From Vreelandella malpeensis (GTDB lineage Bacteria; Pseudomonadota; Gammaproteobacteria; Pseudomonadales; Halomonadaceae): a stretch of DNA of 64,000 bases. The DNA is taken from contig NZ_WHVL01000004.1 of assembly GCF_020622355.1 (NCBI RefSeq), forward strand, positions 186,001 through 250,000. Reading direction: 5' to 3'. Below, piece after piece: positions 46,591-60,675 of the stretch. Below the pieces are notes generated by a model that saw only the letters and a program-made list of their open reading frames with translations, was not told the origin of the DNA and ran no database searches. Made by a program: the position numbers and the translations under genes. Positions within the stretch are counted from its first letter, which is position 1. Every line of letters begins with the position of its first letter.

Positions 46591-48648
46591 TCATTCCGGC
46601 AAGGCGTAGACCACCACTTGATCACCGACGTGATCTTTCAAAATGGTGTTGCCACCGGCAACGAACGCCACGTACTGGCGGCCCTGGTACTCGTAGACGG
46701 CGGGATTGGCGACCACCGGGGCCTGGGCCTGGTCCGACCAGAGCTGCTCGCCGGTATCGAGTGAGTAGGCGCGCACCTTGGCGTCCATCGAGGCGCCGAT
46801 GAAGATCAGGCCACCGGCGGTGACCGCCGGGCCGCCGATGGTCGGCGAACCCCAGCTTTCCGGCATGAAGAAACCGAACTGCTGCGAGGCGCCGACCGGG
46901 CCACGCCACTTGACCTCGCCGGTGGTCATGTCGATCGCCACCAGCTCGCCGAAAGGTGGCTCCCAGCAGGGCATGCCCAGCCAGTTCAACGCCACTTCCA
47001 GGCGCATGCCGTAGGGTGCACCTTCTTGCGGAGAGAAGCCGCTTTCGTTGCCGGAGCCGCTGTCCGCCTCCTCATAGGCCTCGCGGTTGAAGAGCTTGAC
47101 GTACTGCACGATGTGCGAGGTATTGACCACCGCCGTCTGGCTGACCGGATCGAAAGCCACGCCGCCCCATTGAACGCCACCGGCGCTGTCCGGGTAAGCA
47201 AGCGTGCCTTCGCCCTGGGTGGTGGGCGGGGTGTACATGCCTTCGTACCAGAGATCGTCCCAGAGGGCGGAGCACTGGCCGAAGCTTGCGACATCCGCCA
47301 GCGCCCACACCTCGGGTTTGCGGGACTGGTCGAGAAGCGGCGCAGGCAGGGTGGGGAAGGGTTGGGTGGGCGAGTAGACCTCGCCTTCGACGTTGCCGTC
47401 GCCGCCGGGCACCTCGCGCTCCTCGATCGGCCAGACGTCCTCGCCGGTCTCGCGGTTGACCACGAACAGAAAGCCCATCTTGGTCGCCTGCATCAGCGCC
47501 GGGATCTCTTCGCCATCGACGGTGATATCCATCAGCGTCGGTGCGGCATTGATGTCGTAGTCCCAGATGTCGTGGTGTACCCACTGGCGCGACCAGACCA
47601 CCTCGCCGGTCTCGATGTCGAGCGCGGTGGTCGAGGTCGCCAGCGGCACTTCTTCGGTGCGGTTGCCGCCCCAAAAGTTCGGTGAGGGCGAGGCGATGGG
47701 CAGATAGACCAGCCCTAGCTCCTCGTCGGCGCTCATGTGAGTCCAGACGTTGGCGGTGCCGCTTCGCTCACGCATTTCCGGGGTCAACGCCTCGAACGTC
47801 CATTCACGCTCGCCGGTACGCGCATCGATGCCGAACACCGTGCCCGCCGGCGTGACGCTTTCCGCCCAATCCTTGCCGGCCCAACCTACGATCAGGCGAT
47901 CGCCGACCACCGTGGGTGGCTGCAGAAGCGAAAGTGGCCAATTCTCGAGCTTGTCATTCCAGTCGTTGATGTTCAAGACGCCGCCGTCGGCAAAGCCTTC
48001 GCACAGCTCGCCGCTGTCGGCGTCCAGCGCGAAGAGCTGGGCGTCCATGGTGCCGAAATAGACGATCTTCTGGCACATCTCGCCATCGACCGGTTCATCC
48101 GCCTCCCAGTAGGCGACGCCGCGGCTCTTGAGCGCCGGCTGGGTCAGGGTTTCTTGGCTCGACTGAGTATCGAATTGCCAGCGCTCGTCGCCGGTGGCCG
48201 GGTCGAGCGCGAACACCCGGTACATCGGCGTGCCGATATAGAGTGTGTCGTTGGCGAATACCGGCGTGGCCGACCACACCGTCGGGGCGTGGTCACCGGA
48301 GCCATCGGAAACATCGCCGGTATGAAACTCCCACGCCTTCTCGAGATCCGCGACGTTATTCGCCGTGATCTGATCCAGCGGGCTGTACTTCTGGGCGTTG
48401 AGCTGACCGTGGAAGCTGTCCCAGACAGCCCCTTCCGGCACCAGCGGAATCGGCGGCGCGGCGTCTTCTGGTGTTGTCGCTTCAATGGTGCTCTGCTGTT
48501 GTTCGCTGTTCGAGAGGTCGTTCGCGGACGCAGGCTGCTCCTTGGCCAGCAGCGCTGACGGCGCCAGCAGCAGCGTGAAAAGCGCCAGCGGGGTCAGGAA
48601 CCTGATGGAGCGTGAGCGAAGGTGCAGCGGGATAATGTCGTCAGGCAT
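46591..48648 (-). CDS. PQQ-dependent dehydrogenase catalytic subunit (SldA / glucose dehydrogenase family)
   Basis: A 685-residue quinoprotein of the periplasm. An N-terminal signal/anchor segment lies at about 15-35 (FLTPLALFTLLLAPSALLA). The rest is an eight-bladed propeller with family blocks: FHGQLNAQKYSPLDQITANN, GTPMYRVFALDPATGDERW (about 138-156), MSADEELGLVYLPIASPSPN (about 300-319), WVHHDIWDYDINAAPTLMDI (about 352-371, active-site region) and GGLIFIGASMDAKVRAY. It oxidises a sugar or polyol and passes electrons to ubiquinone. Membrane glucose dehydrogenase has a fused N-terminal membrane domain; here that domain is a separate gene upstream, as in Gluconobacter polyol dehydrogenase SldBA. 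Substrate is therefore open: polyol, glycerol, glucose or a sugar acid. Confidence 0.85.
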   Translation of the reverse strand: MPDDIIPLHLRSRSIRFLTPLALFTLLLAPSALLAKEQPASANDLSNSEQQQSTIEATTPEDAAPPIPLVPEGAVWDSFHGQLNAQKYSPLDQITANNVADLEKAWEFHTGDVSDGSGDHAPTVWSATPVFANDTLYIGTPMYRVFALDPATGDERWQFDTQSSQETLTQPALKSRGVAYWEADEPVDGEMCQKIVYFGTMDAQLFALDADSGELCEGFADGGVLNINDWNDKLENWPLSLLQPPTVVGDRLIVGWAGKDWAESVTPAGTVFGIDARTGEREWTFEALTPEMRERSGTANVWTHMSADEELGLVYLPIASPSPNFWGGNRTEEVPLATSTTALDIETGEVVWSRQWVHHDIWDYDINAAPTLMDITVDGEEIPALMQATKMGFLFVVNRETGEDVWPIEEREVPGGDGNVEGEVYSPTQPFPTLPAPLLDQSRKPEVWALADVASFGQCSALWDDLWYEGMYTPPTTQGEGTLAYPDSAGGVQWGGVAFDPVSQTAVVNTSHIVQYVKLFNREAYEEADSGSGNESGFSPQEGAPYGMRLEVALNWLGMPCWEPPFGELVAIDMTTGEVKWRGPVGASQQFGFFMPESWGSPTIGGPAVTAGGLIFIGASMDAKVRAYSLDTGEQLWSDQAQAPVVANPAVYEYQGRQYVAFVAGGNTILKDHVGDQVVVYALPE

Positions 48649-48656
48649 GGGGTATC

Positions 48657-49019
48657 TCACGAGCGAAAGGCGTTCGAAGGGGCGGGGCTTGCAAGATCGA
48701 TGATCCAGCCGATCAGGCCGATTACCATCGCCACACACAGAAGCCACTGGTGAAGCAACAGCGCGGCAAAGAACGTGCCGGCCAGGCCCAGCAGGATCAG
48801 AACGCGAAGGATGACGAGACCCGCGCCGCGGTTGAGTTTGAAAAGCGCAAGTGAAGCACCGGCAAGCACCACGCAGGCCAGGAGGGCGACCAGCGCGCCG
48901 AGCGTGCCGGTCACTCCCGTCAGCGGCGTCAAGTACGCGTAAAGCGCGATGAGTAGCCCGACGAGCGCCGATACGAGCAGTAGCCCCGCGCCCAGACGGC
49001 GCCTTTGCAATTGTGGCAT
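48657..49019 (-). CDS. Small membrane subunit of the PQQ dehydrogenase (SldB-like)
   Basis: A 120-residue hydrophobic protein with four to five membrane segments: about 10-30, 36-60, 66-84 and 87-108 in the 120 residues, the last followed by IGWIIDLASPAPS. Size, topology and position directly before a PQQ propeller gene (8 bp apart) match SldB (126 residues) of Gluconobacter polyol dehydrogenase, which corresponds to the N-terminal membrane domain of PQQ glucose dehydrogenase. It would anchor the catalytic subunit and channel electrons to ubiquinone. AGGGAAA precedes the ATG. Its own sequence gives no catalytic clue. Confidence 0.72.
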   Translation of the reverse strand: MPQLQRRRLGAGLLLVSALVGLLIALYAYLTPLTGVTGTLGALVALLACVVLAGASLALFKLNRGAGLVILRVLILLGLAGTFFAALLLHQWLLCVAMVIGLIGWIIDLASPAPSNAFRS

Positions 49020-49217: not shown

Positions 49218-50264
49218 ATGCGCTCGGCACGAATCCTCCTCGCTCTCGCCGTGGGGCTGGCCGGGTTGCTGACCGCGCTGGCCTCGACGGAGGCCTTCGA
49301 GCCGCGTCTGGTGCGCCTCGAAACCCAGCGCGCGCTGCCCTCGCTCGACGCCGCCCTTGCCGGAGAAAGCGCCGAGATCAACGCGGTATTTCTTCACTAC
49401 GCCGACGAACCGGCGCTATGGATGAACGCCCATCTGGCGCTCGAGCGCTTTGGCGGCGCCGCTCGCGAGACGCTGCTCTCCTATGCGTATCTCCCTGCCT
49501 TCCAGGACGTGCTCGCCCGCTTCGGGCCGGAGGCGCTCTTGCCGATCGTTTACTACCGCGAGCACGATGTGGCCACGCTCAAGGCCAGCCGCTGGTGGAA
49601 CGAGGCCGATGACACGCCGCTGGCGCCTGTCGAGTGGAATGCGAACCAGCGCGGGCTGATGGGCATTGCGCTGCTGGCGGACGAGGGGCATGCGCTGTTG
49701 AACCAGTTCGCGGTGGATAGTGACAACGAGATTCACTGGCTGCAGAGCGAGCGCGTCATTACCGGCGTGGGGGATTTCTTCACCAGCGGCGTGCGTGGCC
49801 TGGAAAGTCGGTGGCGCCGGGATGAAGCGATCGGCGCGGCGGATATGGGCTGGGCAGGGGTCGATCTGCTCTTGATGGCGAGCACAGTGAAGGTGCTGCG
49901 CGCCGGGCGTCTCGCCCGTGGCGCACGGGTGGGGGGCGTCGAAGCCCGCGCGACGCAAACCGGCGCTCGCTCCGGCGCGCTTGCCGGCACCGCCCGCTTT
50001 GCCGCGCTGCCCAGAGCTGCCAGACTCGCCGCGCTCACCGCCACCGCCTACGTCGTGATCCGCCATCCGTCGCTGATCAGCGCGCTCGGCGCCAACCTCG
50101 CCCGCTGGCTTGGCCTGCCCGCCTGGCTTGGGCAGTTCGCCCTTTGGCTGGTCGTGCTGCTGCCGGCGCTGATCATGCTGCGGGTTCTGTGGCGCTTCGT
50201 GCTGGCGCCGCTTTCATGGGCCGTCGCGCTATTGCTGCGTCATTCGAAACGCCCGATCGAATAG
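49218..50264 (+). CDS. Membrane protein of unknown function
   Basis: A 348-residue protein with an N-terminal hydrophobic segment (residues 5-24, signal peptide or anchor). It is followed by a soluble domain of about 180 residues rich in His, Trp and acidic residues (AVFLHYADEPALWMNAHLALERFG, in parts). A basic Ala/Gly/Arg-rich linker (about 225-275) and two C-terminal membrane helices (about 290-335) end it. No catalytic motif or family is recognised. GAGGAAAATCT precedes the ATG. It runs 36 bp into the 3' end of the acid-sugar kinase gene on the other strand, so it is probably not part of that operon. The long linker suggests a scaffold or envelope role, but nothing stronger can be said. 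Confidence 0.65.
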   Translation: MRSARILLALAVGLAGLLTALASTEAFEPRLVRLETQRALPSLDAALAGESAEINAVFLHYADEPALWMNAHLALERFGGAARETLLSYAYLPAFQDVLARFGPEALLPIVYYREHDVATLKASRWWNEADDTPLAPVEWNANQRGLMGIALLADEGHALLNQFAVDSDNEIHWLQSERVITGVGDFFTSGVRGLESRWRRDEAIGAADMGWAGVDLLLMASTVKVLRAGRLARGARVGGVEARATQTGARSGALAGTARFAALPRAARLAALTATAYVVIRHPSLISALGANLARWLGLPAWLGQFALWLVVLLPALIMLRVLWRFVLAPLSWAVALLLRHSKRPIE

Positions 50265-51431
50265 CTCGACCCCGCCCATCTGCCCGCCTTTCATGATGAC
50301 GGGTAAGCGGCGGGCATCATGGAGGTTGGCGGCACAGATCGGCACGCCGTCGGCCAACGGCCCCAGGTAGTCGATGCTTTTAGGCGCCAACTGGCGAAGG
50401 GCCAAACTCGAGGTATCGCCGCCGGCCACGAGGAGCGTGCCCACCGGTGCCGTCTCGACCAGCGAGGCGATCAGTTCGGCGCAGCGCCTGGCCAACTCGA
50501 GGGGGCTCATGCCGTGGGCGGCGTCCTCGTCGAGAACGGCAAGCGTTGCCTGGCCTTGTCGCAGGTGAGCGGTGATCCGTTCGCGTTCGGCATGGCAGCC
50601 GCTGGCAAGCTGCCGCGTTGAAAGGGGGATCTTGACCAGCCGATGCGCTGCAGCGACCTGGGCGGCGGTGACCGCGGAGCGGCTGCCAGCGAATACCAGA
50701 AGCGGCGCGGGCAGGTGCGAAGGTAACGCGACCTCGGCGTGCTGCGGATACAGCGCCTGAACCACGCTGCTCGCTCCGACCCAGAGCCTGGGGCAGGGGC
50801 CCGAGCCGAAACGCTGGCCGATGCGCGCCAGGTCGCGGCTTTCCAGCGCATCACAGAGAAGCGGGCCGTCCGGTACCGGCGTCGAGGCGTGAAGCCCTTC
50901 GCGATCCAGCAAGACCACGTGATCGAGCCCCATGGCGGCGAAGTGCAGGCGCAGGTCCGATTCGATCATGGGCGTGACCGGGTGGCGCTGCATCACCGGG
51001 TGGCGGTCGATGCGGTAGGTGCGGCCATCGCTTGCGCGGGCGAACAGATGGCCGAATACGCAGTAGCGCCCGAGGCTTGGCTGGCCGCCGACGATCAGCG
51101 TCGCCTTGGGCGCCAGGCGCTCGGTGAGCGCGCGGATCGCCGTGGCAATGTTGCCCGTCGAGACGCTGCTGTCGAAGGTCGAGCAGACTTTCAGGTGAAT
51201 GACCTCCGGGCGATGGGCAAGAAGCCGTTCGCCAATCTCGGCCATTTCGCGGGCGATCGCCTGCTGACCCATGCTGCGCGCGGCGGTGGCGATGCCGAAG
51301 GCGTCGAGATCCGCCACTTCCTCGGGGGAGGGCGGCGACAGGTAGAGCCGCGCCTTGAGCCCCGCCCGGCACAGCGTGGCGAGCGTATCCGACGCGCCGG
51401 TAAAGTCGTCGGCAATGAACACGTAGCGCAT
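50229..51431 (-). CDS. Four-carbon acid-sugar kinase family protein (DUF1537)
   Basis: A 400-residue kinase of the DUF1537 (OtnK/DtnK/OiaK) family, which phosphorylates oxo- or hydroxy-acid sugars such as 3-oxo-tetronate, threonate or 3-oxo-isoapionate. The N-terminal domain starts RYVFIADDFTGASDTLATL (Asp8, Asp9, Thr11, substrate side) and contains HLKVCSTFDSSVSTGNIATA (about 76-95). The C-terminal nucleotide-binding domain contains LLVFAGSRSAVTAAQ and the glycine-rich LLVAGGDTSSLALRQL (about 340-355), ending GVPICAANLHDARRLPVIMKGGQMG. The ATG at 51431 is 2 bp after the stop of the RuBisCO-like gene. Last gene of the operon. The acid it acts on is unknown. Confidence 0.88.
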   Translation of the reverse strand: MRYVFIADDFTGASDTLATLCRAGLKARLYLSPPSPEEVADLDAFGIATAARSMGQQAIAREMAEIGERLLAHRPEVIHLKVCSTFDSSVSTGNIATAIRALTERLAPKATLIVGGQPSLGRYCVFGHLFARASDGRTYRIDRHPVMQRHPVTPMIESDLRLHFAAMGLDHVVLLDREGLHASTPVPDGPLLCDALESRDLARIGQRFGSGPCPRLWVGASSVVQALYPQHAEVALPSHLPAPLLVFAGSRSAVTAAQVAAAHRLVKIPLSTRQLASGCHAERERITAHLRQGQATLAVLDEDAAHGMSPLELARRCAELIASLVETAPVGTLLVAGGDTSSLALRQLAPKSIDYLGPLADGVPICAANLHDARRLPVIMKGGQMGGVELFDRAFRMTQQ

Positions 51432-51433
51432 GG

Positions 51434-52681
51434 TCAACGCCCGCCGAAGAAATCGAGCGCCTCGCCCAGCGCCGGGCGGCCCGCTCGCGCCAGCGGCTCG
51501 CCGGCTTCGATGCTTTGCCACGCCTGCTTGAGGCTCGCCACCCCCGCCGCCGGCCCGCTCGGGTGGGCCAGAATGCCGCCGCCGGCGAGGAACATGAAAT
51601 CGGCGCTTCGGGTCTTTTCGAACGTCAGTTGCAGGGTGCCCGCCCACTGGCCGGAGGAGAACACCGGCATGACGCGGTCGTCGGTGCCACCGAGCGCGGT
51701 GAGCGAAAGCCTCGCGGCGTGGGCGACCTCGTCGGTTGAATCGGCGAACTTGCCGGCCATGCCGTGAACGTGTAGATGGTCGATCCCCGCTAGCCGATAG
51801 AGCGTCTGATAGGCGGCGATGTTGATGCCGAGCGCCGGGTGCCGGGCGAAGGCGCCGAAGCCGTTGCGGTGGCCGTGAATGGCAAGCGGGGTCGAGGCGC
51901 GCAGGCTCTGCATCGCCGAAAGCCCGCACCAGTTGAGGCTCGCCATCACACAGCTGCCGCCCTCTTTCTGGACGTGGTCGGCGTGGCGGCGCATGGCGTC
52001 GAGCTCGTCGGTGATGTTGAAGGCGACCATGACGTCGCGCCCGCTGCGCTCGCGATAGCGACGCACGCGCTTCATCACGGCGCTGACGCGCGCCTCGACC
52101 GGCGCGTGAGGATGGTTGCCGGCGATTTCGTCATCCTTGATGAAATCCACCCCGACCTCGCAAAGCGTCTCGACCAGTTCGGCGATCTCCTCGGGGCTCA
52201 GGCCGATGTTGGGCTTCAGGATGGTGCCGAACAGCGGCCGCCCGACGACGCCGAGCGCCTCGCGCGTGCAGGCCACGCCCAGCGCCGGGTGCAGGTAGCG
52301 ATCCCGGTAGTCAGGGCGTAGCGTGAGCGCCGTGAGGCGAAGCCCGGTCAGCTCGCCCAGATCGAACAGGTTGCCGGCCACCGTCGCGGCAAGCGTTGGC
52401 AGGTTCACCCCGACGTTCTCCTCCGGGTACTCGATCTCGACCGCCGCGCGCCGCCAGGGCCCCTGGACGCCCTTGCGCTCTAGGTAAGCGCTGGGCAGGC
52501 TGGGCGCTGCGCGCTCCTCTATCACCTCGACCCGGGTCACTCGCGCGCCGAAGCGCGCCCGCAGCGCCTCGGTTTCGCCCTGGATCTTGACGAACGTGCC
52601 CGAGCTCTGCTCGCCGGCCATCGTCTGCGCCACCTCGGCGGGGTCGTAAGGCGTTTCGATCTCGTAGTGGGCGCGAATCAC
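51434..52681 (-). CDS. RuBisCO-like protein with a nearly complete RuBisCO active site
   Basis: A 415-residue protein of the form IV RuBisCO-like group. Aligned by eye with plant RuBisCO: Asn104 (GNLFDL) matches Asn123; Lys156 (LKPNIGL) matches Lys175; Lys182-x-Asp184-Glu185 (IKDDEIAGN) matches the carbamylated Lys201-Asp203-Glu204 metal site; His271-Arg272 (HGHRNG) matches His294-Arg295; His304 matches His327; Lys311 (GMAGKFAD) matches loop-6 Lys334; Ser342 (VFSSGQW) matches Ser379. Asn158 replaces Lys177. Mg2+-dependent enolisation, decarboxylation or C-C cleavage of a phosphorylated oxo-acid is likely. The only known close pairing with a DUF1537 kinase that I recall is in D-apionate catabolism. 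The start is GTG at 52681, overlapping the VOC stop (GTGA). Confidence 0.9.
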   Translation of the reverse strand: MIRAHYEIETPYDPAEVAQTMAGEQSSGTFVKIQGETEALRARFGARVTRVEVIEERAAPSLPSAYLERKGVQGPWRRAAVEIEYPEENVGVNLPTLAATVAGNLFDLGELTGLRLTALTLRPDYRDRYLHPALGVACTREALGVVGRPLFGTILKPNIGLSPEEIAELVETLCEVGVDFIKDDEIAGNHPHAPVEARVSAVMKRVRRYRERSGRDVMVAFNITDELDAMRRHADHVQKEGGSCVMASLNWCGLSAMQSLRASTPLAIHGHRNGFGAFARHPALGINIAAYQTLYRLAGIDHLHVHGMAGKFADSTDEVAHAARLSLTALGGTDDRVMPVFSSGQWAGTLQLTFEKTRSADFMFLAGGGILAHPSGPAAGVASLKQAWQSIEAGEPLARAGRPALGEALDFFGGR

Positions 52682-53223
52682 GGTTGTTTCTCCCCGAGGT
52701 TCGGGAAGGGGCGCACCGGGTCACGGCCGTCCCAATGTTCCGACGCTTCGCGAATTCGGCGAAACATGTCGCCCTTCGGGCCGAGCACTTCGGAAAGCTC
52801 GATGACCGTACCCGGGTGATACTCGCGATCAAAGTAGGCGAAGCGGCCATTGGCGCCGACCTCGCCGCTCATCTTGACGTGGTGGCCGCGCGCCTGCATG
52901 GCGGCCAGATCCGCATCGTAGGTTTCCGTCCAGAAGGCGACGTGCTGAAGGCCGGTGTGACCCGCCGCCATGAAGTCTCGATACATCGAGGGGGCGTCGT
53001 TGCGCGTCTGGATCAGCTCCACTTGGATGAAACCGGAGTTGGCCAGCGCCACCGAGTTGTGCACCTCGAAGGAGTCGCCGTCGTAGGTGTAGTTCTCGAT
53101 GGGCACGCGCGGGTTGTAGAAGAAAGGCCCGACGCCCATAACGTCGGTCCAGTAGACCATGGCCTGCTCGATATCGGTGACTACGTAACCCAGCTGGCGA
53201 ATATTGCCTAGAAATTGGCTCAT
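52678..53223 (-). CDS. VOC/glyoxalase-fold protein of unknown reaction
   Basis: A 181-residue vicinal-oxygen-chelate protein with two beta-alpha-beta-beta-beta modules. Module 1 starts IRQLGYVVTDIEQAMVYW (about 8-25) and has FIQVELIQ; module 2 has GLQHVAFWTE (about 112-121) and TVIELSEVLG (about 152-161). Three metal-ligand positions can be assigned (Glu in VELIQ, His in GLQHVAF, Glu in VIELSE). The usual first ligand is a Gly, so the metal site may be open or altered. Similar sequences are often annotated lactoylglutathione lyase or bleomycin resistance, but the operon suggests an isomerase, epimerase or cleavage step on an acid sugar. TAGGAA precedes the ATG; 8 bp after dctM. Confidence 0.82.
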   Translation of the reverse strand: MSQFLGNIRQLGYVVTDIEQAMVYWTDVMGVGPFFYNPRVPIENYTYDGDSFEVHNSVALANSGFIQVELIQTRNDAPSMYRDFMAAGHTGLQHVAFWTETYDADLAAMQARGHHVKMSGEVGANGRFAYFDREYHPGTVIELSEVLGPKGDMFRRIREASEHWDGRDPVRPFPNLGEKQP

Positions 53224-53231
53224 GACGTTTC

Positions 53232-54506
53232 CTACATGACGAGGTTCGGCAGCCACGTGGAGAGCGCGGGCACCAGCGTGACCAGCGCCAGGGCGGCGAA
53301 CAGTGAAAGATAGAAGGGGGCGACGCCGCGAACGACCGTGGCAAGCGGCATTTTGGTGATGATCGATACCATGTAGAGGCTCATGCCCACCGGCGGCGTC
53401 AGAAGCCCGAGCATCAGGTTGAGCACGAATACCACGCCGAGCTGCTCCGGCGGCACGCCGGCTTGCAAAAGCGCCGGTGTGACGATCGGCGCGATGATCA
53501 GAATCGCCACGATCGCCTCCAGGAACATGCCCACCACCAGCAGCAGCAGGTTCAAAAGCAGCAGAAGCACCAGCGGGTTGCTCGACACGCCGAGAAGCCA
53601 CTCACCGGCCAGAGCCGGCACGCGGTCCATGGTCAGCACCCAGGCGAAGAGCGCGGCGCACGCCACCACGAACAGCACGTTGGCGGTCGATAGCACCGTT
53701 TCCCGGGTGCAGGTCACGAAGGTGCGCAGCGTCAGCGAGCGGTAGATCAGCACGCCGATCAGCACGGCATAGGCGGTCGTCACGCCCGCTGCTTCGGTCG
53801 GCCCGAAGTAGCCGCTGACCATGCCGCCGACCAGCAGCACCGGGGCAAGCAGCGCCGGTAGCGAGATCAGCGTTTTCTGACCAAGCGCCCTCACGCTCGG
53901 CTGCACGTCGTCGTGGGGCAGCGAGTAGCGCCGGGCCATCACGGCGATCTGGATCATCAGCGCCGCCGCCACGACCAGGGCGGGCACGACGCCGGCGAGC
54001 AGCGCACGAATGGTCGAGACCTCCGCGGCCGTGGCGAAGATGATCAGCGGAATCGAGGGCGGAAAGATCGGGCCGATCGTCGCCGCCGCGATGGTGAGGC
54101 CGGCGGCGAAGCGCTGGGTGTAGCCCTGCTGTGCCATCTGGCGAATCTGGATGCCGCCGAGTGCTCCGATGTCCGCCAGCGCCGCCCCGGACATGCCGGA
54201 AAAGATCAGGCTGGTGAGCACGTTGACGTGAGCCATGCCGCCGCGAATGCGCCCGACCACCATCCGCATCAGTTCGAACAGGTGCGTGGTGACGCCGGTT
54301 GCCCCCAGAATCGATGCCGCCAGAATGAACAGCGGCACCGCCAGAAGCGGCGTGCTGTCGAGGGTATTGATCGCCCGCTGGGCCATGACCGTGAAGGGCA
54401 GATCATAAAGCAGGATGACCAGTCCCGCGGAGAGCCCCAGGCTCACCGCTACCGGCGCCCCGATCAGCAGGCAGGCCGCGAAGATCAGCAGTAGCGTCAA
54501 GGACAT
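53232..54506 (-). CDS. dctM: TRAP transporter large permease, DctM family
   Basis: A 424-residue, 12-helix transport subunit. Landmarks are GAPVAVSLGLSAGLVIL, LFILAASILGATGVTTHLFE, LIFSGMSGAALADIGALGGI (about 90-109), AAATIGPIFPPSIPLIIF, GMFLEAIVAILIIAPI and LTPPVGMSLYMVS. The ATG at 54506 follows GGGAGG and starts 10 bp inside the dctQ end. As in the first TRAP system, it couples substrate entry to sodium. It is immediately followed by the VOC gene. Confidence 0.93.
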   Translation of the reverse strand: MSLTLLLIFAACLLIGAPVAVSLGLSAGLVILLYDLPFTVMAQRAINTLDSTPLLAVPLFILAASILGATGVTTHLFELMRMVVGRIRGGMAHVNVLTSLIFSGMSGAALADIGALGGIQIRQMAQQGYTQRFAAGLTIAAATIGPIFPPSIPLIIFATAAEVSTIRALLAGVVPALVVAAALMIQIAVMARRYSLPHDDVQPSVRALGQKTLISLPALLAPVLLVGGMVSGYFGPTEAAGVTTAYAVLIGVLIYRSLTLRTFVTCTRETVLSTANVLFVVACAALFAWVLTMDRVPALAGEWLLGVSSNPLVLLLLLNLLLLVVGMFLEAIVAILIIAPIVTPALLQAGVPPEQLGVVFVLNLMLGLLTPPVGMSLYMVSIITKMPLATVVRGVAPFYLSLFAALALVTLVPALSTWLPNLVM

Positions 54507-54997
54507 GTCGAATCCCTCCCGCGTGCCAGCCGCCCCAGGCGATAGAGCGATATCACGGCCAACAGGACGATGCTGACCAGCGCCGGCATGTAGAGCCACA
54601 GATTGGGGATGCCCAGCGCCGGTGACGCGAAGCGCCCGGCGCGCAGCAGAAAGCGGTAGAAGCCGTAGAGTGTCAGCGTGCAGAACCCGAGCGTTGCCAG
54701 CTCACCGAGCGCCAGGCAAACGGTTTGCTTCAGGCCTGAAAGCGCCTCCGCCAGCATCGTGACCGCCACGTGCTGGCCGTGAAACAGCAGGTAGGGCGTG
54801 GCCAGGTAGACCATCGACAGCCCGGCGAAGCGCGCGGCTTCATCCGCCCAAGGCAGACCGGTGCTGAACAGGTTGCGGGCGACGACCTGGGCGACCACCA
54901 GGGTGGCGATGAGCACCAGAAGCAGCATCGCCACGCCCACACACGCCTCGCTCAGCCGATCAAGGGCTCTGCCCATCAGGGAGTGTTGAGCGCTCAT
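54497..54997 (-). CDS. dctQ: TRAP transporter small permease, DctQ family
   Basis: A 166-residue four-helix subunit. LIATLVVAQVVARNLFSTGLPWADEAARFAGLSMVYLATPYLL (about 29-71, quoted in parts) contains the family block with a Trp-Ala-Asp-Glu turn. The start at 54997 is 3 bp after the dctP stop and its end overlaps dctM by 10 bp. It should form the membrane complex with the DctM that follows. Confidence 0.92.
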   Translation of the reverse strand: MSAQHSLMGRALDRLSEACVGVAMLLLVLIATLVVAQVVARNLFSTGLPWADEAARFAGLSMVYLATPYLLFHGQHVAVTMLAEALSGLKQTVCLALGELATLGFCTLTLYGFYRFLLRAGRFASPALGIPNLWLYMPALVSIVLLAVISLYRLGRLARGRDSTCP

Positions 54998-55000
54998 GGC

Positions 55001-56005
55001 TTAGCGCGTTTCGTCGATCAGCCGGTAGAGCTCGCCGTACTGGTCGTCGAACTCCTCGGCGATACGCGCCTGTACCCGGCTGCGAAAGGCGTCGACGTCC
55101 AGACCCTCGTCGACTCCAATGATCTGCATGCCGGCTTCGCTCAGCTGGGCCAGATCGCTCGCCTCGGCCTCCAGCATCGCCTCGGTGGCGCGCTGGCGAA
55201 CTTCCTGCGCGGCTTCGGCGATCGCCGCCTGGTTCTCCGCCGAGAGCGACTGCCAGGTGTCATCGTTGATCACGATCACCTGCGCGGCGCTGATGTGGCC
55301 GGTGAGCATCAGATGGCTCTGCACCTCGTTGAGCTTGGAGGTGACCACCACGTTGACCGGGTTTTCCTGGCCCTCGACCACGCCGGTGGCCAGCGCCGTC
55401 GGGACCTCCGACCAGTCGATGGGCACCGGAATCGCCCCCATGCCTTCGACGGTCGCCATGTAGATCGGGAAGGGAATCGAGCGGATCTTGACGCCGTTCA
55501 AGTCATTCGGCGTGAGGATCTCCCGATTCGCCGTCAGGTGCCGGGTACCGAAGTAGAAGGCGTAGAGCAGACGCACCCCGGAAGCGGCCGCGAGCTCTTC
55601 GTTGAGCGTGCTCATCACCGGCGAGTCGACGTCCATCACCGCCATCAGATGATCCACGTCGCGGTAGAGATACGGCGTATCGAAGGCGGCAAAGGGCGCG
55701 TAGAGCGAGCCGATGGCGCCGGCGGTGTTGTGGGAGATTGCGATGGAGCCGGTCGAGACCGCCTCGGCGAGCTCCTGAAGGCGCCCTAGCTGGGAGTTGG
55801 GATAGATCTCGACGGCGACCTCGCCGCCGGTTTTTTCCTCGATCGCCTCGGCCAGCCACTCGGCCTGCATGCCGGCGATGGAGTTGGGCGTGTGCATGTG
55901 CCCGTAGCGTAGCGTGACGTCCTGGGCGAAAGCGTTCGAGAGGGCGAAGGCGGACATGCCTGCGACCAATGCGAGATGGCGAGGGCGAATCAGTTTGTCT
56001 AGCAT
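55001..56005 (-). CDS. dctP: TRAP transporter solute-binding protein, DctP family
   Basis: A 334-residue periplasmic receptor. The signal peptide (hydrophobic 11-25) ends near NAFAQ, followed by VTLRYGHMHTPNS. The substrate-binding arginine region reads KIRSIPFPIYMATVEGMGAI (about 169-188) and the following WSEVPTALATGVVEGQENP is typical. The differences in the contact block (IPFPIYMATVEG, against the VPNVPLFVDVWQ of the first TRAP system) suggest a different ligand. The ATG at 56005 has GGAGA before it. First gene of the six-gene operon ending with the DUF1537 kinase. Confidence 0.92.
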   Translation of the reverse strand: MLDKLIRPRHLALVAGMSAFALSNAFAQDVTLRYGHMHTPNSIAGMQAEWLAEAIEEKTGGEVAVEIYPNSQLGRLQELAEAVSTGSIAISHNTAGAIGSLYAPFAAFDTPYLYRDVDHLMAVMDVDSPVMSTLNEELAAASGVRLLYAFYFGTRHLTANREILTPNDLNGVKIRSIPFPIYMATVEGMGAIPVPIDWSEVPTALATGVVEGQENPVNVVVTSKLNEVQSHLMLTGHISAAQVIVINDDTWQSLSAENQAAIAEAAQEVRQRATEAMLEAEASDLAQLSEAGMQIIGVDEGLDVDAFRSRVQARIAEEFDDQYGELYRLIDETR

Positions 56006-56117
56006 TGTTATTCTCCGAAAGCGTGATTGTTTTTTATTGTTCTGTAGCCAAGTGTTTTCCACCTGCTCACGACTTGAAGGCTAGGGCAGCTCTTCTCTTC
56101 ATAGCAATGAGAAATTC
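56006..56117. promoter_or_regulatory. Divergent promoter region of the RuBisCO-like operon and its LacI gene
   Basis: A 112-bp gap between dctP (minus) and the LacI gene (plus). It has ATTGTT three times (about 56004-56009, 56026-56031 and 56036-56041), the last two as a tandem pair across T-runs, i.e. AACAAT on the minus strand. No clear CpG-centred LacI palindrome was found. Promoters could not be assigned with confidence. Confidence 0.35.
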
Positions 56118-57143
56118 ATGATGGTTTTTGATGTAAAACGTCCCCTGATACCCGATATTGCGGCGGCGGCCGGGGTCTCCACGGCCACCGTCGACCGGGT
56201 GCTCAACCGTCGGCCCGGCGTGCGTAAGGCGACGCTCGCCCGGGTGCTCAAAGCCGCCGTCGAGGTGGGTTATCTTGAAGAGGAGGAGCTCAATCGGCGC
56301 CTTGGCCCCACGTTCGCCCGGGTGGTGTTCCTGCTTCCCCAGGGCACCAATCCCTACCTCACCGGGCTCAATGGCTACGTTCGCGAGATGGCGCAGCAGT
56401 CCGTCGAGCCGTTGAAAGTGAGCAGCCATTTCATCGAAAGCTTCAATCCCGAGGCGCTGGTACAGGCGCTCCGGCGCTACGGCCGATTGGCGGACGTGGT
56501 GGTCTTCATGGCCATCGAGCATCCTAAGGTACGCCAGGTGATCGACGAACTGACCGGAGCCGGCAAGCGCGTCGTCACCATCATTTCCGATCTACCAACC
56601 TCGAGCCGCAGCGCCTATATCGGCATCGACAACTTCGCCGCCGGGCGCACCGCCGCTCGGGTCATGGGCCGTTTTTGCACCGCGCCCAAGGGCAAGCTCG
56701 CGCTGGTCGCGGCGAGTCGTGCCTACCGCGCCCACATGGAGCGCGAGATGGGGTTTCTGGCGCTGGTCGAGGAGAGCTTTCCTCATCTTGGCGTGATCGG
56801 CCCTCAGGAGGGTCACGACAACCGCGACGAAAACTACGTCAACACGTGTCGCTTGCTCGAGCGCCATCCGGATCTCGTGGGGATCTACAACGTCGGTGGC
56901 TCATCGGACGGTATCGGCCGAGCCCTGCGCGAATCCGGGCGCGAGAGGCAGGTCTGTTTCATGGGCCACGGGCTAACGCCGGACACCCGCGCGATGCTGG
57001 TCGACGGCATCATGGACATGGTCATCACGCAAAGCCCCGCCGCCATCTACAGCTGCGCGATCGAGGTGGCCAGCGGCGATGTCCTTAATAGCAGCGCCGT
57101 GGCCATGGAGATCTATTTTTCGGAGAATTTGCCGCCTACGTGA
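56118..57143 (+). CDS. LacI-family transcriptional regulator
   Basis: A 341-residue regulator. The N-terminal HTH reads IPDIAAAAGVSTATVDRVLN (about 11-30), with the hinge LEEEELNRRL, then a sugar-binding-protein-like domain (VVFLLPQGTNPYLTGLNGYV, about 70-89; YIGIDNFAAGRTAARVMG, about 168-185; GIYNVGGSSDGIGRALRES). It is divergent from the RuBisCO-like operon, so it probably regulates that operon and binds its substrate or an intermediate. The effector domain resembles ribose-binding type proteins. It ends 98 bp from a converging TAXI TRAP permease gene. Confidence 0.88.
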   Translation: MMVFDVKRPLIPDIAAAAGVSTATVDRVLNRRPGVRKATLARVLKAAVEVGYLEEEELNRRLGPTFARVVFLLPQGTNPYLTGLNGYVREMAQQSVEPLKVSSHFIESFNPEALVQALRRYGRLADVVVFMAIEHPKVRQVIDELTGAGKRVVTIISDLPTSSRSAYIGIDNFAAGRTAARVMGRFCTAPKGKLALVAASRAYRAHMEREMGFLALVEESFPHLGVIGPQEGHDNRDENYVNTCRLLERHPDLVGIYNVGGSSDGIGRALRESGRERQVCFMGHGLTPDTRAMLVDGIMDMVITQSPAAIYSCAIEVASGDVLNSSAVAMEIYFSENLPPT

Positions 57144-57241: not shown

Positions 57242-59128
57242 TCATGCCGTCACGAAGCGCGGTCGCAGGGTGAAGCGCCAGAGTATCAAGGTCAGTGCGA
57301 GCACCAGGGTTAGGCTCCATGGCGTCGACAGCGTCGGCGAGAGAATCATGGCCAGGCTCACGCCCAGAAAGAGCGCGCGTTCGAACCAGGAGAGCTTGCC
57401 GTTCATCCAGCCCATCAGGAATACAGCCCAGGAGAAGGTGGCCAGCAGCATGCCGGCGGCGCTCACGCCGATCTCGAAAGCCGTGCCTTGCCAAAGCACG
57501 TTGGGGTCATTGATGAAGCCGAAAGGAACGATGAAGATCACCAGCGAGTAGGCGAAGGCCAGAAGCCCGGTCTTGTTGGCATCGGCGTTGGCGATGCCGG
57601 CCGCCGCATAGGCACATAGCGCCACTGGTGGTGTGACCATCGACAGCACGCAGTAGTAGAGCACGAAGAGGTTGGCGGCCAGACGGTCGATGCCCAGATC
57701 CACCAGGGCGGGAACGAAGACCAGCGAGCCGATGATGTAGGCAGCCACGGTGGGAAGTCCCATTCCCATGATGATGCAGCCGACGATGACCAGCAGCAAA
57801 GAGAGATAGAGCTGGCCAGTGCCCGCGTCCGAGAGCAGGCTCACGAACTTGAGGGCGAGATTCGACTGGGTGGCAACGACCATCACCACGCCCACGGCGG
57901 CCAGCGGTGCGGAAATCCATGCCATCTGCTTGGCGGTATCGAGTACCGAATCGAACAGCTGGTGCAGGCTGTAGCGGGTCGACTTGCGCAACAGCGGCAT
58001 GACGAGGGCGGTAACGGTACCCACCAGGGCAGCGTAGGGCGCGGAGTAGCCGACGATCAGGCAAGTGATCATCGCCACCGGCGCGAGCAGCAGATGCAGG
58101 CGTGGCAGAACCGGAGCGATATCCAGGAGCTCGGATGGCACGTTGCCGATGCCGAAGCGGCGCGCGCGCAGGTCGACGATCACGTAGAGCGCGAAATAGA
58201 ACGCCGCGGAAGGAATCAAGGCGGCCGCGGCGATCGTGCCGTAGGAGATGCCCATCATGTCCGCCATCACGAAGGCGGCCACCCCCATGATGGGGGGCAT
58301 CAACTGCCCGCCGGTCGAGGCGATCGCCTCCGTGGCCGCGGCCTGGTCCTTGGAGTAGCCGGCGCGGTTCATGATCGGAATGGTCAGCACCCCGGTCGAT
58401 GTCGTGTTGGCGATCGCCGAGCCGGACACCATGCCGAACAGGGCGGAGCCTACCAGCGCCATCTTGGCCGCCCCTCCTTTGAGGCGCGCCGTCATGCGCA
58501 TCGCCAGGTCGATGAACAGGGCGCCGCCGCCAGTAAAGGTGAACACCGTGCCGAAAAGAACGAAATAGAACACGAAGTTGATCGCGGCGGTCGCCGTGAC
58601 GCCGAAGATGCCATCGGTCTTCATGCTGATCAGCTCGGCCATCGTCGAGAGCGAGAAGCCCGGGAAGGCCATCCAGCCAGGAAAGTAGCCGCCGAAGTAG
58701 GCGTAGCCGAGAAACGCCAGCACGACCGCCAGCAGTGACCAGCCCACGGCACGGCGCACGGCTTCAAAGATCAGGACGAGGCCAGCCACGTGCAAGAAGA
58801 GATCGATGGGCAGGACCGGGTCGATCATCTCGAGGTGGCGCTCGAGTCGGCCGACCTCCAGGTGATAGATCCAGACGAAGGAGATTGATAGCGCAAGGCA
58901 GCCAAGATCGACCGTGCGCCCCAGCCAGCGCTTCAGGTCCGGCCCCCAATCGAGCGGGTTGAAAGCGAAGATCAGCGCCACGGACATGTAGACGTGGAAA
59001 GTTACCGAGGCCAGAGGCGACGACGGATTGAAGAAGTGCCTGAGTAGATAGATGACATAGGTGAAAGAGAGGCCTATCTGCAGGGCGCGCAGCAGCATCG
59101 GATAGGAAAGCAGGCCGGACGGTTTCAA
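57242..59128 (-). CDS. TRAP transporter fused permease (4TM/12TM), TAXI type
   Basis: A 628-residue membrane protein in which DctQ- and DctM-like parts are fused, as in TAXI-TRAP carriers. The N-terminal 4 helices (about 10-150) carry FNPLDWGPDLKRWLGRTVDLG. The DctM part (about 155-620) carries FGMVSGSAIANTTSTGVLTIP (about 234-254), STGGQLMPPIMGVAAFVMAD and GMGLPTVAAYIIG, with SMVTPPVALCAYAAAGIA near 516. TTG at 59128 is preferred as start because GAGG lies 8 bases before it; ATG 59098 has no ribosome-binding site. It is preceded by the TAXI receptor gene 101 bp upstream. Confidence 0.92.
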   Translation of the reverse strand: MKPSGLLSYPMLLRALQIGLSFTYVIYLLRHFFNPSSPLASVTFHVYMSVALIFAFNPLDWGPDLKRWLGRTVDLGCLALSISFVWIYHLEVGRLERHLEMIDPVLPIDLFLHVAGLVLIFEAVRRAVGWSLLAVVLAFLGYAYFGGYFPGWMAFPGFSLSTMAELISMKTDGIFGVTATAAINFVFYFVLFGTVFTFTGGGALFIDLAMRMTARLKGGAAKMALVGSALFGMVSGSAIANTTSTGVLTIPIMNRAGYSKDQAAATEAIASTGGQLMPPIMGVAAFVMADMMGISYGTIAAAALIPSAAFYFALYVIVDLRARRFGIGNVPSELLDIAPVLPRLHLLLAPVAMITCLIVGYSAPYAALVGTVTALVMPLLRKSTRYSLHQLFDSVLDTAKQMAWISAPLAAVGVVMVVATQSNLALKFVSLLSDAGTGQLYLSLLLVIVGCIIMGMGLPTVAAYIIGSLVFVPALVDLGIDRLAANLFVLYYCVLSMVTPPVALCAYAAAGIANADANKTGLLAFAYSLVIFIVPFGFINDPNVLWQGTAFEIGVSAAGMLLATFSWAVFLMGWMNGKLSWFERALFLGVSLAMILSPTLSTPWSLTLVLALTLILWRFTLRPRFVTA

Positions 59129-59229
59129 GAGACGTACCTCGCAATGTTCGCCGTGATGAACGCTCGGCGCCGCCGCAAGAGTCTGCAGCGGCGCCGTGCA
59201 TGGTGGTGCTGGGTATCGCCGGGACGTGA

Positions 59230-60228
59230 CTATTCGATCCAGCCACGCTCACGGTAGTAGCGGGCTGCACCGGGATGAAGCTCGAGCACCGCCTGGTCGG
59301 CCTGGGCGCCGGCTTCGGGGTCCCAGCCGGCCAGCGGCGGGAAGGCATCGGCCAGTTGGTCGCGGGCTTCGACCATGGCCTGGGTGATCTGGTAGGCAAT
59401 CTCGTCGTCCATGTCGGCGCCGACGATCAGGATGGTCGGAGTGTTGGAGGTGAAGTAGTCGCTATCCAGACCCTGGTAGCTGCCCTCCGGCAGAGTGATG
59501 CGCGGAACGCCCACCTCGGTCATGTGATCGAGCACGGTATCGGACATGGGAACGAAGACCAGGTCGCTGGTGAGTGCCAACTCCTGCATGGTGGCCTGGC
59601 CGATCGGGGCGTTCTCGATATACACGTCCGCCGTGCCGTCACGCATCATCTGGGCGATCTGAGCGGTACTGATCTGATTGATCACACCACGGCTGCGCAT
59701 CTCGTCGAGGCTGGTACCCAAGGCTTCGAACATGTGGTCGGCGAGAATCGGCACCTGGGAGCCGGTCGGCTTGAGAACGAACCGCGGAGGCCGCTCGGCG
59801 TTGACCATGTCATCGAAGCTGGTTTGTCCCGTGCGCTCGACGTAGGCACGTCGGGCGGCGACGGTGACATAGGCGGCCTGTAGCCCACCGATCAGCGTGC
59901 GCAGGTTTTCTGCGGCACGGCCTTCGAACGCCTCACCGATGCCGTCACGAGCCCAGAGCGCTGCGCTGGCGCTGGCGAAGCCAATATCCGCTGAACCCTG
60001 GCCCACGGCGAGCGGGTTCATCATGCCGCCGCCTCGCGGCAGCACGTCGGCACTCAGTGAGTAATTTCCTTGGGAGCGATCAATGATGTCGCCTACGGCG
60101 GAACCATAGGCGTACCAGCCGGTGCCAGGGTCTTGCGAGATGATCCGCACCGTGGCGTCTTCGGCCAAGGCCGAGAAAGAAGTGGCGGCCAGGAAAGTGG
60201 CTAGCGCGGCGGTTTTGAAATGCTTCAT
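59230..60228 (-). CDS. TAXI-type TRAP solute-binding receptor
   Basis: A 332-residue TAXI-family (TRAP-associated extracytoplasmic immunogenic) receptor. A signal peptide ends near FSALAED (about 24). The mature N-terminus ATVRIISQDPGTGWYAYGSAVGDII (in parts) is the TAXI glycine-rich ligand loop, followed by the phase-binding block VLPRGGGMMNPLAVGQGSADIGFASASAALWA (in parts, about 64-95). The C-terminal half contains ALTSDLVFVPMSDTVLDHM. Known or suspected TAXI ligands are small carboxylates such as 2-oxoglutarate and amino acids; nothing here decides. GGGAGAAG precedes the ATG at 60228. Confidence 0.9.
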   Translation of the reverse strand: MKHFKTAALATFLAATSFSALAEDATVRIISQDPGTGWYAYGSAVGDIIDRSQGNYSLSADVLPRGGGMMNPLAVGQGSADIGFASASAALWARDGIGEAFEGRAAENLRTLIGGLQAAYVTVAARRAYVERTGQTSFDDMVNAERPPRFVLKPTGSQVPILADHMFEALGTSLDEMRSRGVINQISTAQIAQMMRDGTADVYIENAPIGQATMQELALTSDLVFVPMSDTVLDHMTEVGVPRITLPEGSYQGLDSDYFTSNTPTILIVGADMDDEIAYQITQAMVEARDQLADAFPPLAGWDPEAGAQADQAVLELHPGAARYYRERGWIE

Positions 60229-60675
60229 TTCTTCTCCCAAGCGCCTTTGAAGACGCTGAAAATTATTGTGTATGCGGGCTTGGCGTGACTCGGTGTAAGT
60301 AGTAGCGCTGAGGCGATCCGATAACGATGCAGTCAAGGCGTGCTCACCCGCAGGAAACAAGCGGACCGTCAATCAAAGCGAGCGTTTAGGAGAGTGCGGA
60401 GTGACGACTTGAGTCACTAATGTGTATTAATTGATTGAATCGTGCATTTATACTTTCGATTATGCGACTAAAGCCAATCCTTTAAATGGTATATTTTTAT
60501 ACTAAATTCATAGCATTGGGATTACTGGAAGTAGCTATATAAGGAGTGGTGAAAGGTTTTTCGTACGTTTAGATAATATTGATATCTAGAAGTGATCGCT
60601 TTGATCAATAGGTGTTCAAGCCTTGGGATGTTTGCAAGCCGGGCTGGTTCTTGCTGCCAACCCGGCTGGAATTGA
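60229..60675. other. 447-bp gene-free, AT-rich stretch
   Basis: No convincing gene lies between the TAXI receptor start and the epmB stop. The first 140 bp can be read in frame with the receptor but add no plausible N-terminus. From about 60420 to 60610 the sequence is clearly AT-rich against the high G+C around it, with TATATTTTTATACTAAAT (60492-60507) and TTTAGATAATATTGATATC (60567-60585). This should contain the receptor promoter on the minus strand. No ORF above 60 codons with a real look, and no tRNA or small RNA, could be supported; the last 40 bp form the epmB terminator hairpin. Confidence 0.5.
60637..60667 (-). terminator. Terminator-like hairpin downstream of epmB
   Basis: AGCCGGGCTGG (60637-60647) pairs with CCAACCCGGCT (60657-60667) with one mismatch and a 9-base loop, 8 bp after the epmB stop. 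The following minus-strand bases are TGCAAAC, so no T-run supports it. Confidence 0.55.

Follow-up and report, generated by a model that had tools for sequence, protein, structure and literature searches.

Which compound is degraded, and by which reactions, through an operon that places a RuBisCO-like protein (RLP) between a vicinal oxygen chelate (VOC)-fold protein and a DUF1537 kinase? This question is raised by a 64,000-nt stretch of Vreelandella malpeensis DNA (contig NZ_WHVL01000004.1, positions 186,001 to 250,000; hereafter the window), in which the three enzyme genes follow those of a tripartite ATP-independent periplasmic (TRAP) transporter and lie opposite a divergent lacI gene. Acid-sugar catabolism by an RLP and a DUF1537 kinase is already known, and what is new here is the VOC front end, together with an RLP clade of its own. 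The gene set very probably serves to catabolise an acid sugar, and this type of operon, proposed in the initial annotation, is supported by the results. As a complete scheme we tentatively propose a self-contained catabolic cassette for an acid sugar of external origin, probably an oxo acid, with import followed by the VOC protein, the kinase and the RLP, which we rate as possible though somewhat short of an even chance.

Characterised RLPs are few, only a handful according to passages of PMC10176493. Among the papers listed by searches of the open-access PMC literature, outside which the main subscription papers lie, none deals with the combination of VOC, RLP and DUF1537. The clade is widespread and has a close relative of solved structure (PDB 3nwr). 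As its operon is complete, with a transporter and three enzymes, substrate and chemistry could be found from one binding protein and three purified proteins.

Conservation of the three-enzyme set

The cassette is a widespread and conserved set of three enzymes with an importer and a divergent regulator gene. A scan of reference genomes, with one genome per species, gave 191 RLP relatives, the best 80 of which (59–82% identity to the window RLP) were kept; loci and genomes are referred to by L and G numbers. In 80/80 loci the VOC gene is located upstream of the RLP gene on the same strand (67–88% identity) and the DUF1537 gene downstream (37–68% identity). Chance clustering was rejected, since the order VOC-RLP-DUF1537 was found again in every locus, and the VOC protein, which the initial annotation had named as the partner and for which it had suggested a neighborhood survey, proved to be fixed. 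The divergent LacI gene is present in 79 of the 80 loci, the exception (L029) being a contig that starts inside the operon. Two distant types of TRAP transporter accompany the same enzymes: type A in 43/80 loci as judged by DctP, plus L029 by its DctM, and type B, with a different DctP and a fused DctQM, in 36/80.

The VOC and DUF1537 figures come from a separate count, because a clustering of neighboring open reading frames (ORFs) in 81 loci, L001 included, merged ORFs and so undercounted VOC (70) and DUF1537 (71). Besides the genes of the cassette and the transporter, that clustering revealed no gene at a fixed position in most loci. The families at scattered positions included an ATP-binding cassette (ABC)-type ATPase cluster (31 loci), a second cluster with short-chain dehydrogenase/reductase (SDR) proteins among its members (17 loci), and smaller ones.

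Hosts with a readable rank belong to the Gamma-, Alpha- and Betaproteobacteria (12 of the 80 are without rank), plasmid-borne cassettes also occur, and the ten best named RLP matches are from halomonads. Within the family to which the window belongs the distribution is patchy: with RLP identity as the sole criterion, 16 of 201 genomes, its own included, have a cassette-type RLP (69–100%), 28 have only RLPs of 45–51% and three only weak matches, while five of the 16 have both types. Comparisons of six genes with three halomonad relatives gave nonsynonymous divergence (dN) of 0.05–0.16 and synonymous divergence (dS) of 1.0–2.9 (one lacI comparison without dS); the low dN in relation to dS, which is near saturation, indicates purifying selection. 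For DUF1537 the dN was 0.27–0.29 and no dS was obtained. As for phage or viral carriage, no VOC match was found in the phage collection and no RLP relative in a pattern scan of viral contigs.

Clade, active site and gene partners of the RLP

OiaX and OiaT, named partly after annotation, are taken here to be the RLP from Agrobacterium radiobacter K84 and that from Xanthobacter BAA-1158, respectively. The K84 enzyme decarboxylates 3-oxo-isoapionate-4-phosphate, and that of BAA-1158 transcarboxylates/hydrolyses the same compound, as described in passages of PMC6302742. The initial annotation had left room for the window RLP to belong to a characterised group, and it lies outside those compared here: it scores below the OiaX and MtnW cut-offs, outside the OiaX branch and apart from the OiaT stand-ins described below. 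Its best NCBIfam match is OiaX NF042437, with 368.4 bits against a cut-off of 700; type III RuBisCO gives 205.1 bits (cut-off 497.45), and MtnW TIGR03332, the methionine salvage enolase that shares the RLP superfamily with it, only 116.2 bits (cut-off 513.6). With both cut-offs missed, identification as OiaX or MtnW was rejected. The kinase remains far from the OiaK cut-off (NF042436, 179.8 against 700 bits), and both domains required of a DUF1537 acid-sugar kinase, PF07005 and PF17042, are present. The own genome, of 3.6 Mb in 18 contigs, gave a single RuBisCO-family match.

A maximum-likelihood tree was built from 44 RLPs, and it supports the groups and not the branching order among them. 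The 26 cassette RLPs in it form one clade (support 98/94); two long end branches were flagged (L133, L130). The two OiaX included pair together outside this clade (100/100), and four RLPs from ApnL-bearing loci, with four others, form a separate eight-row branch (99/92). OiaT was represented in the comparisons by RLPs linked to homologues of ApnL and of D-apionate oxidoisomerase (ApnO). One such locus (L099) has an ApnL above the curated cut-off (777.6 vs 750 bits), a Gfo/Idh dehydrogenase and a PGDH_C/KARI-like protein taken as ApnO; three more (L103, L115, L116) have ApnL and ApnO homologues. Identification as OiaT was also rejected, since the cassette clade differs from these stand-ins and the cassette has no ApnO. 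Ancylobacter oerskovii (G002) possesses both a cassette (L072) and a separate locus with ApnL, ApnO and RLP homologues (L116), and therefore these are not one system under two names. The closest solved structure is PDB 3nwr, 'A rubisco-like protein' (E 4e-170 over 414 residues), whose source organism is presumably Burkholderia; it shares the cassette motifs KPN, KDDE, HRNG, HVHG and SSGQWAGT, but the entry names no function.

Active-site residues were compared in 87 cassette RLPs (the window, 80 loci and six others), a sister set of 16 (42–51% identical to the window RLP, nine of them near an ApnO homologue), three of a third type (two haloarchaeal, one from Chitinasiproducens), 28 OiaX (26 above the curated cut-off and two annotated as such) and six RuBisCO sequences. 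E24, N104, K156, K182, D184, E185, H271, R272, H304, K311 and S342 are invariant in 87/87 cassette and 16/16 sister RLPs, as well as in the third and RuBisCO sets. We take these eleven to correspond to RuBisCO E60, N123, K175, K201, D203, E204, H294, R295, H327, K334 and S379, K182 presumably being the lysine that is carbamylated in RuBisCO. In contrast, in all 28 OiaX, which are 36–40% identical to the window RLP, position 24 is D, 104 is G, 304 is Q and 342 is G (20) or C (8). Because the decarboxylase OiaX has lost part of the residue set kept by the cassette RLPs, C–C hydrolysis/transcarboxylation is favored over plain decarboxylation; of the two reactions offered in the initial annotation, decarboxylation or C–C cleavage, the residue pattern favors the latter. 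The chances that the cassette RLP performs an OiaT-like hydrolysis/transcarboxylation, as its residues suggest, seem evenly balanced. The cassette RLPs have their own signature as well: N158 and H306 occur in 87/87 of them and in 0/53 others, and T349 in 87/87 and 1/53 (one of the 16 sisters). Together, the RLP sets offer a natural series with which the retention or loss of RuBisCO residues could be tied to reaction type.

The sets also differ in the genes near the RLP. At a threshold of E 1e-15, which a small Glyoxalase_4 protein of L101 does not reach, VOC homologues were counted in 80/80 cassette, 0/16 sister, 0/3 third-type and 0/2 OiaX loci, and ApnO homologues in 0/80, 9/16, 2/3 and 1/2, respectively; an extended SDR is found in 4/16 sister loci. 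VOC thus seems to occupy the place held elsewhere by ApnO, and since ApnO, an extended SDR or VOC is found with RLP-DUF1537 in different sets, this pair seems to be a module whose front end can be exchanged. The absence of an apionate oxidoisomerase from the operon, pointed out in the initial annotation, extends to the whole own genome, in which no ApnO-type domain (PF16896) was found by a search that did find it in 8/30 genomes, including both previously positive ones. The domain is absent in 22 of the 29 cassette genomes searched and present in seven, the eighth positive genome being G030. ApnL gave no match in the own genome, but the same search matched no control genome either.

Other combinations were observed around relatives of these enzymes. 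In L169, L173, L174 and L175, three of which are from the window's family, RLP-DUF1537 is accompanied by an extended SDR in the ApnO/VOC place, and that of L173 is of the epimerase/dehydratase type by NCBIfam. Two loci of the window's genus (L171, L172) combine TRAP, GntR, ApnO homologue, RLP and DUF1537 genes, perhaps for D-apionate use via a TRAP route. The haloarchaeal plasmid loci L101 and L102 have TRAP, aldolase, SDR, RLP, DUF1537 and ApnO-homologue (43–45%) genes, and L101 also encodes the small Glyoxalase_4 protein. On a Croceibacterium plasmid (L097, 8986–11525), RLP-DUF1537 is surrounded by genes with the annotations beta-L-arabinofuranosidase domain protein, alpha-L-fucosidase and beta-galactosidase, and may serve plant polysaccharide breakdown. 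On a Cupriavidus plasmid (L123), a VOC homologue (47%) adjoins SDR genes and a LacI-type regulator gene, with a thiamine pyrophosphate-dependent enzyme and an aldehyde dehydrogenase encoded nearby.

Proposed pathway and rival explanations

From these data we infer the following reactions, order and substrate. The TRAP transporter would bring in a carboxylate, and the VOC protein, with a bound divalent metal, would convert it to a 2-hydroxy-3-oxo acid by non-redox isomerisation. The DUF1537 kinase would then phosphorylate the terminal hydroxyl, and the RLP, using the K182 lysine and Mg2+, would cut the C2–C3 bond by an OiaT-like transcarboxylation/hydrolysis, which would yield 3-phosphoglycerate and a small acid such as glycolate. 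That the kinase acts before the RLP is likely. It is somewhat less certain, though still the better guess, that the VOC protein is a metal-dependent isomerase working without O2. Its membership of the VOC superfamily is indicated by a Glyoxalase_4 match and by four ligand-type residues, Q10, E69, H94 and E142, which do not vary in either of two alignments (21 and 41 sequences) and are candidate metal ligands. It has one PDB match, 3gm5 (E 2.4e-10), and its only NCBIfam match, methylmalonyl-CoA epimerase TIGR03081, is weak (22.7 bits, cut-off 114.95).

Compared with the D-apionate OiaK/OiaT pathway of Xanthobacter, the cassette shares the pair of RLP and DUF1537 kinase, and the eleven RuBisCO residues are common to it and to the OiaT stand-ins; it differs in having VOC for ApnO, LacI for a NanR-type GntR regulator and an RLP clade of its own. 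OiaX also adjoins a DUF1537 kinase gene (L131), but there an ApnO-type gene is located beside it, in addition to the low identity and the four changed catalytic positions. A bolder and rather improbable extension is that VOC replaces the rearrangement half of ApnO, by an NAD-free hydroxymethyl shift (acyloin-type 1,2) between the 2-oxo and 3-oxo forms of a branched C5 acid, after which the RLP would, as a transcarboxylase, rebuild and hydrolyse the skeleton to 3-phosphoglycerate and glycolate. We know of no VOC enzyme with a carbon-migration activity of this kind; if true, the VOC carbon shift would be a third branch of RLP acid-sugar chemistry.

Hints to the substrate come from the binding proteins. 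By sequence, the nearest solved relatives of the window DctP are 4p9k/4pak and 4pdh, which we take to be erythronate/pantoate binders. Among solved structures, 4oan is the closest to the type-B DctP of L035 (438 bits, 309 residues, E 2e-130) and also to those of L121 and L119; it was reportedly modelled with 2-acetolactate, a branched 2-hydroxy-3-oxo acid and the deoxy analogue of 3-oxo-isoapionate. Because of these structures and of that likeness, an apionate-type oxo acid with a branched C5 skeleton is plausible at best, a guess that we consider rather doubtful. Both 2-acetolactate and pantoate/D-erythronate are among the TRAP ligands given, without PDB codes, in passages of a structural survey (PMC5812351). 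In addition, the motifs GTRH, KIRS and QENP of the window DctP contain Arg, Arg and Asn, which, in a mapping of our own, look like the carboxylate-binding residues of TRAP binding proteins described in part of PMC11668362.

Several observations weigh against the proposed pathway. An SDR dehydrogenase opens the operon in five of the 80 loci (L054, L060, L062, L069, L072) and on a Neorhizobium plasmid (L121), so that the imported compound may need oxidation, which weakens the assumption of the initial annotation that it is already oxidised. Three clusters (L118–L120, from G017, G045 and G061) share a VOC protein 57–62% identical to that of the window, type-B TRAP and a DUF1537 kinase, but have PdxA and a DeoC/LacD aldolase, with a DeoR regulator, instead of the RLP, none being seen within their 19.9-kb stretches. 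PdxA normally oxidises a hydroxy acid, which is hard to reconcile with the VOC protein already delivering a 3-oxo acid; these clusters represent another uncharacterised pathway that draws on this VOC family. In the RLP, the RuBisCO K177 site is N158 in 87/87 cassette sequences, Ser in the 16 sisters and Ala (26) or Ser (2) in OiaX, and at the sites that we take to be W66, T173 and G380 all four of the cassette, sister, third and OiaX sets have F, I and S. The cassette RLPs thus lack the full set of catalytic and binding residues of a RuBisCO carboxylase (forms I–III), and substrate or chemistry may differ from those of RuBisCO and OiaT. Glycolate oxidation by GlcD was discarded as support, being non-specific: GlcD-like matches occur in 29/29 cassette genomes (E 0.001), only one of them above the curated cut-off, and that of the own genome stays below it (544.8 vs 567.9 bits). 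An SDR elsewhere in the own genome was also discarded as the dehydrogenase, as the best of 18 matches shares only 33% identity with the SDR of the L121 operon and no close homologue was found.

Among the alternatives, the RLP could be a plain beta-keto acid decarboxylase similar to OiaX, its top NCBIfam match, with a ketose phosphate product entering central metabolism. This is unlikely in view of the missed cut-off, the low identity, the separate clade and the retention of E24, N104, H304 and S342, all altered in every OiaX. The cassette could instead follow the D-apionate OiaK/OiaT route, with ApnO encoded elsewhere in the genome and VOC as an accessory; the identity to the sister set, the same eleven residues and the seven cassette genomes with an ApnO-type domain somewhere would agree with it. 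As the own genome and most of the others lack that domain, VOC is present in every locus and A. oerskovii has both locus types, we consider this route very unlikely.

An only slightly less remote explanation is cleavage of the imported compound by the VOC protein, as a metal dioxygenase or lyase, with one fragment handled by the kinase and the RLP. The VOC fold includes dioxygenases, and two distant VOC relatives (about 41%; L124, L125) adjoin ring-cleaving or ring-hydroxylating genes; on the other hand, the sole NCBIfam match is to an epimerase, weak as it is, and no further gene has a fixed place to deal with a second fragment. Least probable of all, the RLP would be an oxygenase acting on a phosphorylated branched acid, as has been reported in the D-hamamelose pathway. 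The kept RuBisCO residues could permit O2 chemistry, and an RLP of the Ochrobactrum hamamelose pathway is cited in parts of PMC8914248 and PMC10176493, the latter naming oxygenation among RLP reactions.

Gene arrangement in the window

All genes of the six-gene minus-strand operon were located where the initial annotation had placed them, with gaps of at most 8 nt and opposite lacI, and their families were confirmed by Pfam and NCBIfam (Table 1). From dctP to DUF1537, successive genes are 3 nt apart, overlap by 10 nt, are 8 nt apart, overlap by 4 nt and are 2 nt apart. Gene starts were taken from the sequence, and the program-made ORF of DUF1537 begins too far upstream, at 51929.

Table 1. Features of the operon and its divergent regulator gene in window coordinates, with the best Pfam family of each above the gathering score and NCBIfam matches
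Feature	Position	Strand	Assignment
dctP	55001..56005	-	TRAP solute-binding protein, type A; PF03480, TIGR00787 above cut-off
dctQ	54497..54997	-	TRAP small permease; PF04290
dctM	53232..54506	-	TRAP large permease; PF06808, TIGR00786 above cut-off
VOC-fold protein	52678..53223	-	Glyoxalase_4 PF13669, 77.8 bits
RLP	51434..52681	-	GTG start; PF00016 RuBisCO_large and PF02788 RuBisCO_large_N
DUF1537 kinase	50229..51431	-	Four-carbon acid sugar kinase family; PF07005 SBD_N 145.4 bits and PF17042 NBD_C 71.9 bits
lacI	56118..57143	+	Divergent regulator; PF00356 LacI and PF13407 Peripla_BP_4
lacI-dctP intergenic region	56006..56117	.	Presumed promoter/operator, by position only

The cassette is presumably under LacI control. 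A search for a shared operator showed no enrichment: 16-bp palindromes, with one mismatch allowed, occur in 6/75 intergenic regions, compared with a mean of 4.4 and a maximum of 11 after shuffling.

Beyond the end of the operon, a pyrroloquinoline quinone (PQQ) dehydrogenase gene (46591–48747) was considered as a member of the system and rejected, as homologues of 83–89% adjoin the cassette in only four of the 80 loci (L002, L003, L005, L008), with a 37% match in L024. On the other side, a second TRAP system, with a fused permease and an NMT1-like binding protein, is located just past lacI (57242–60372).

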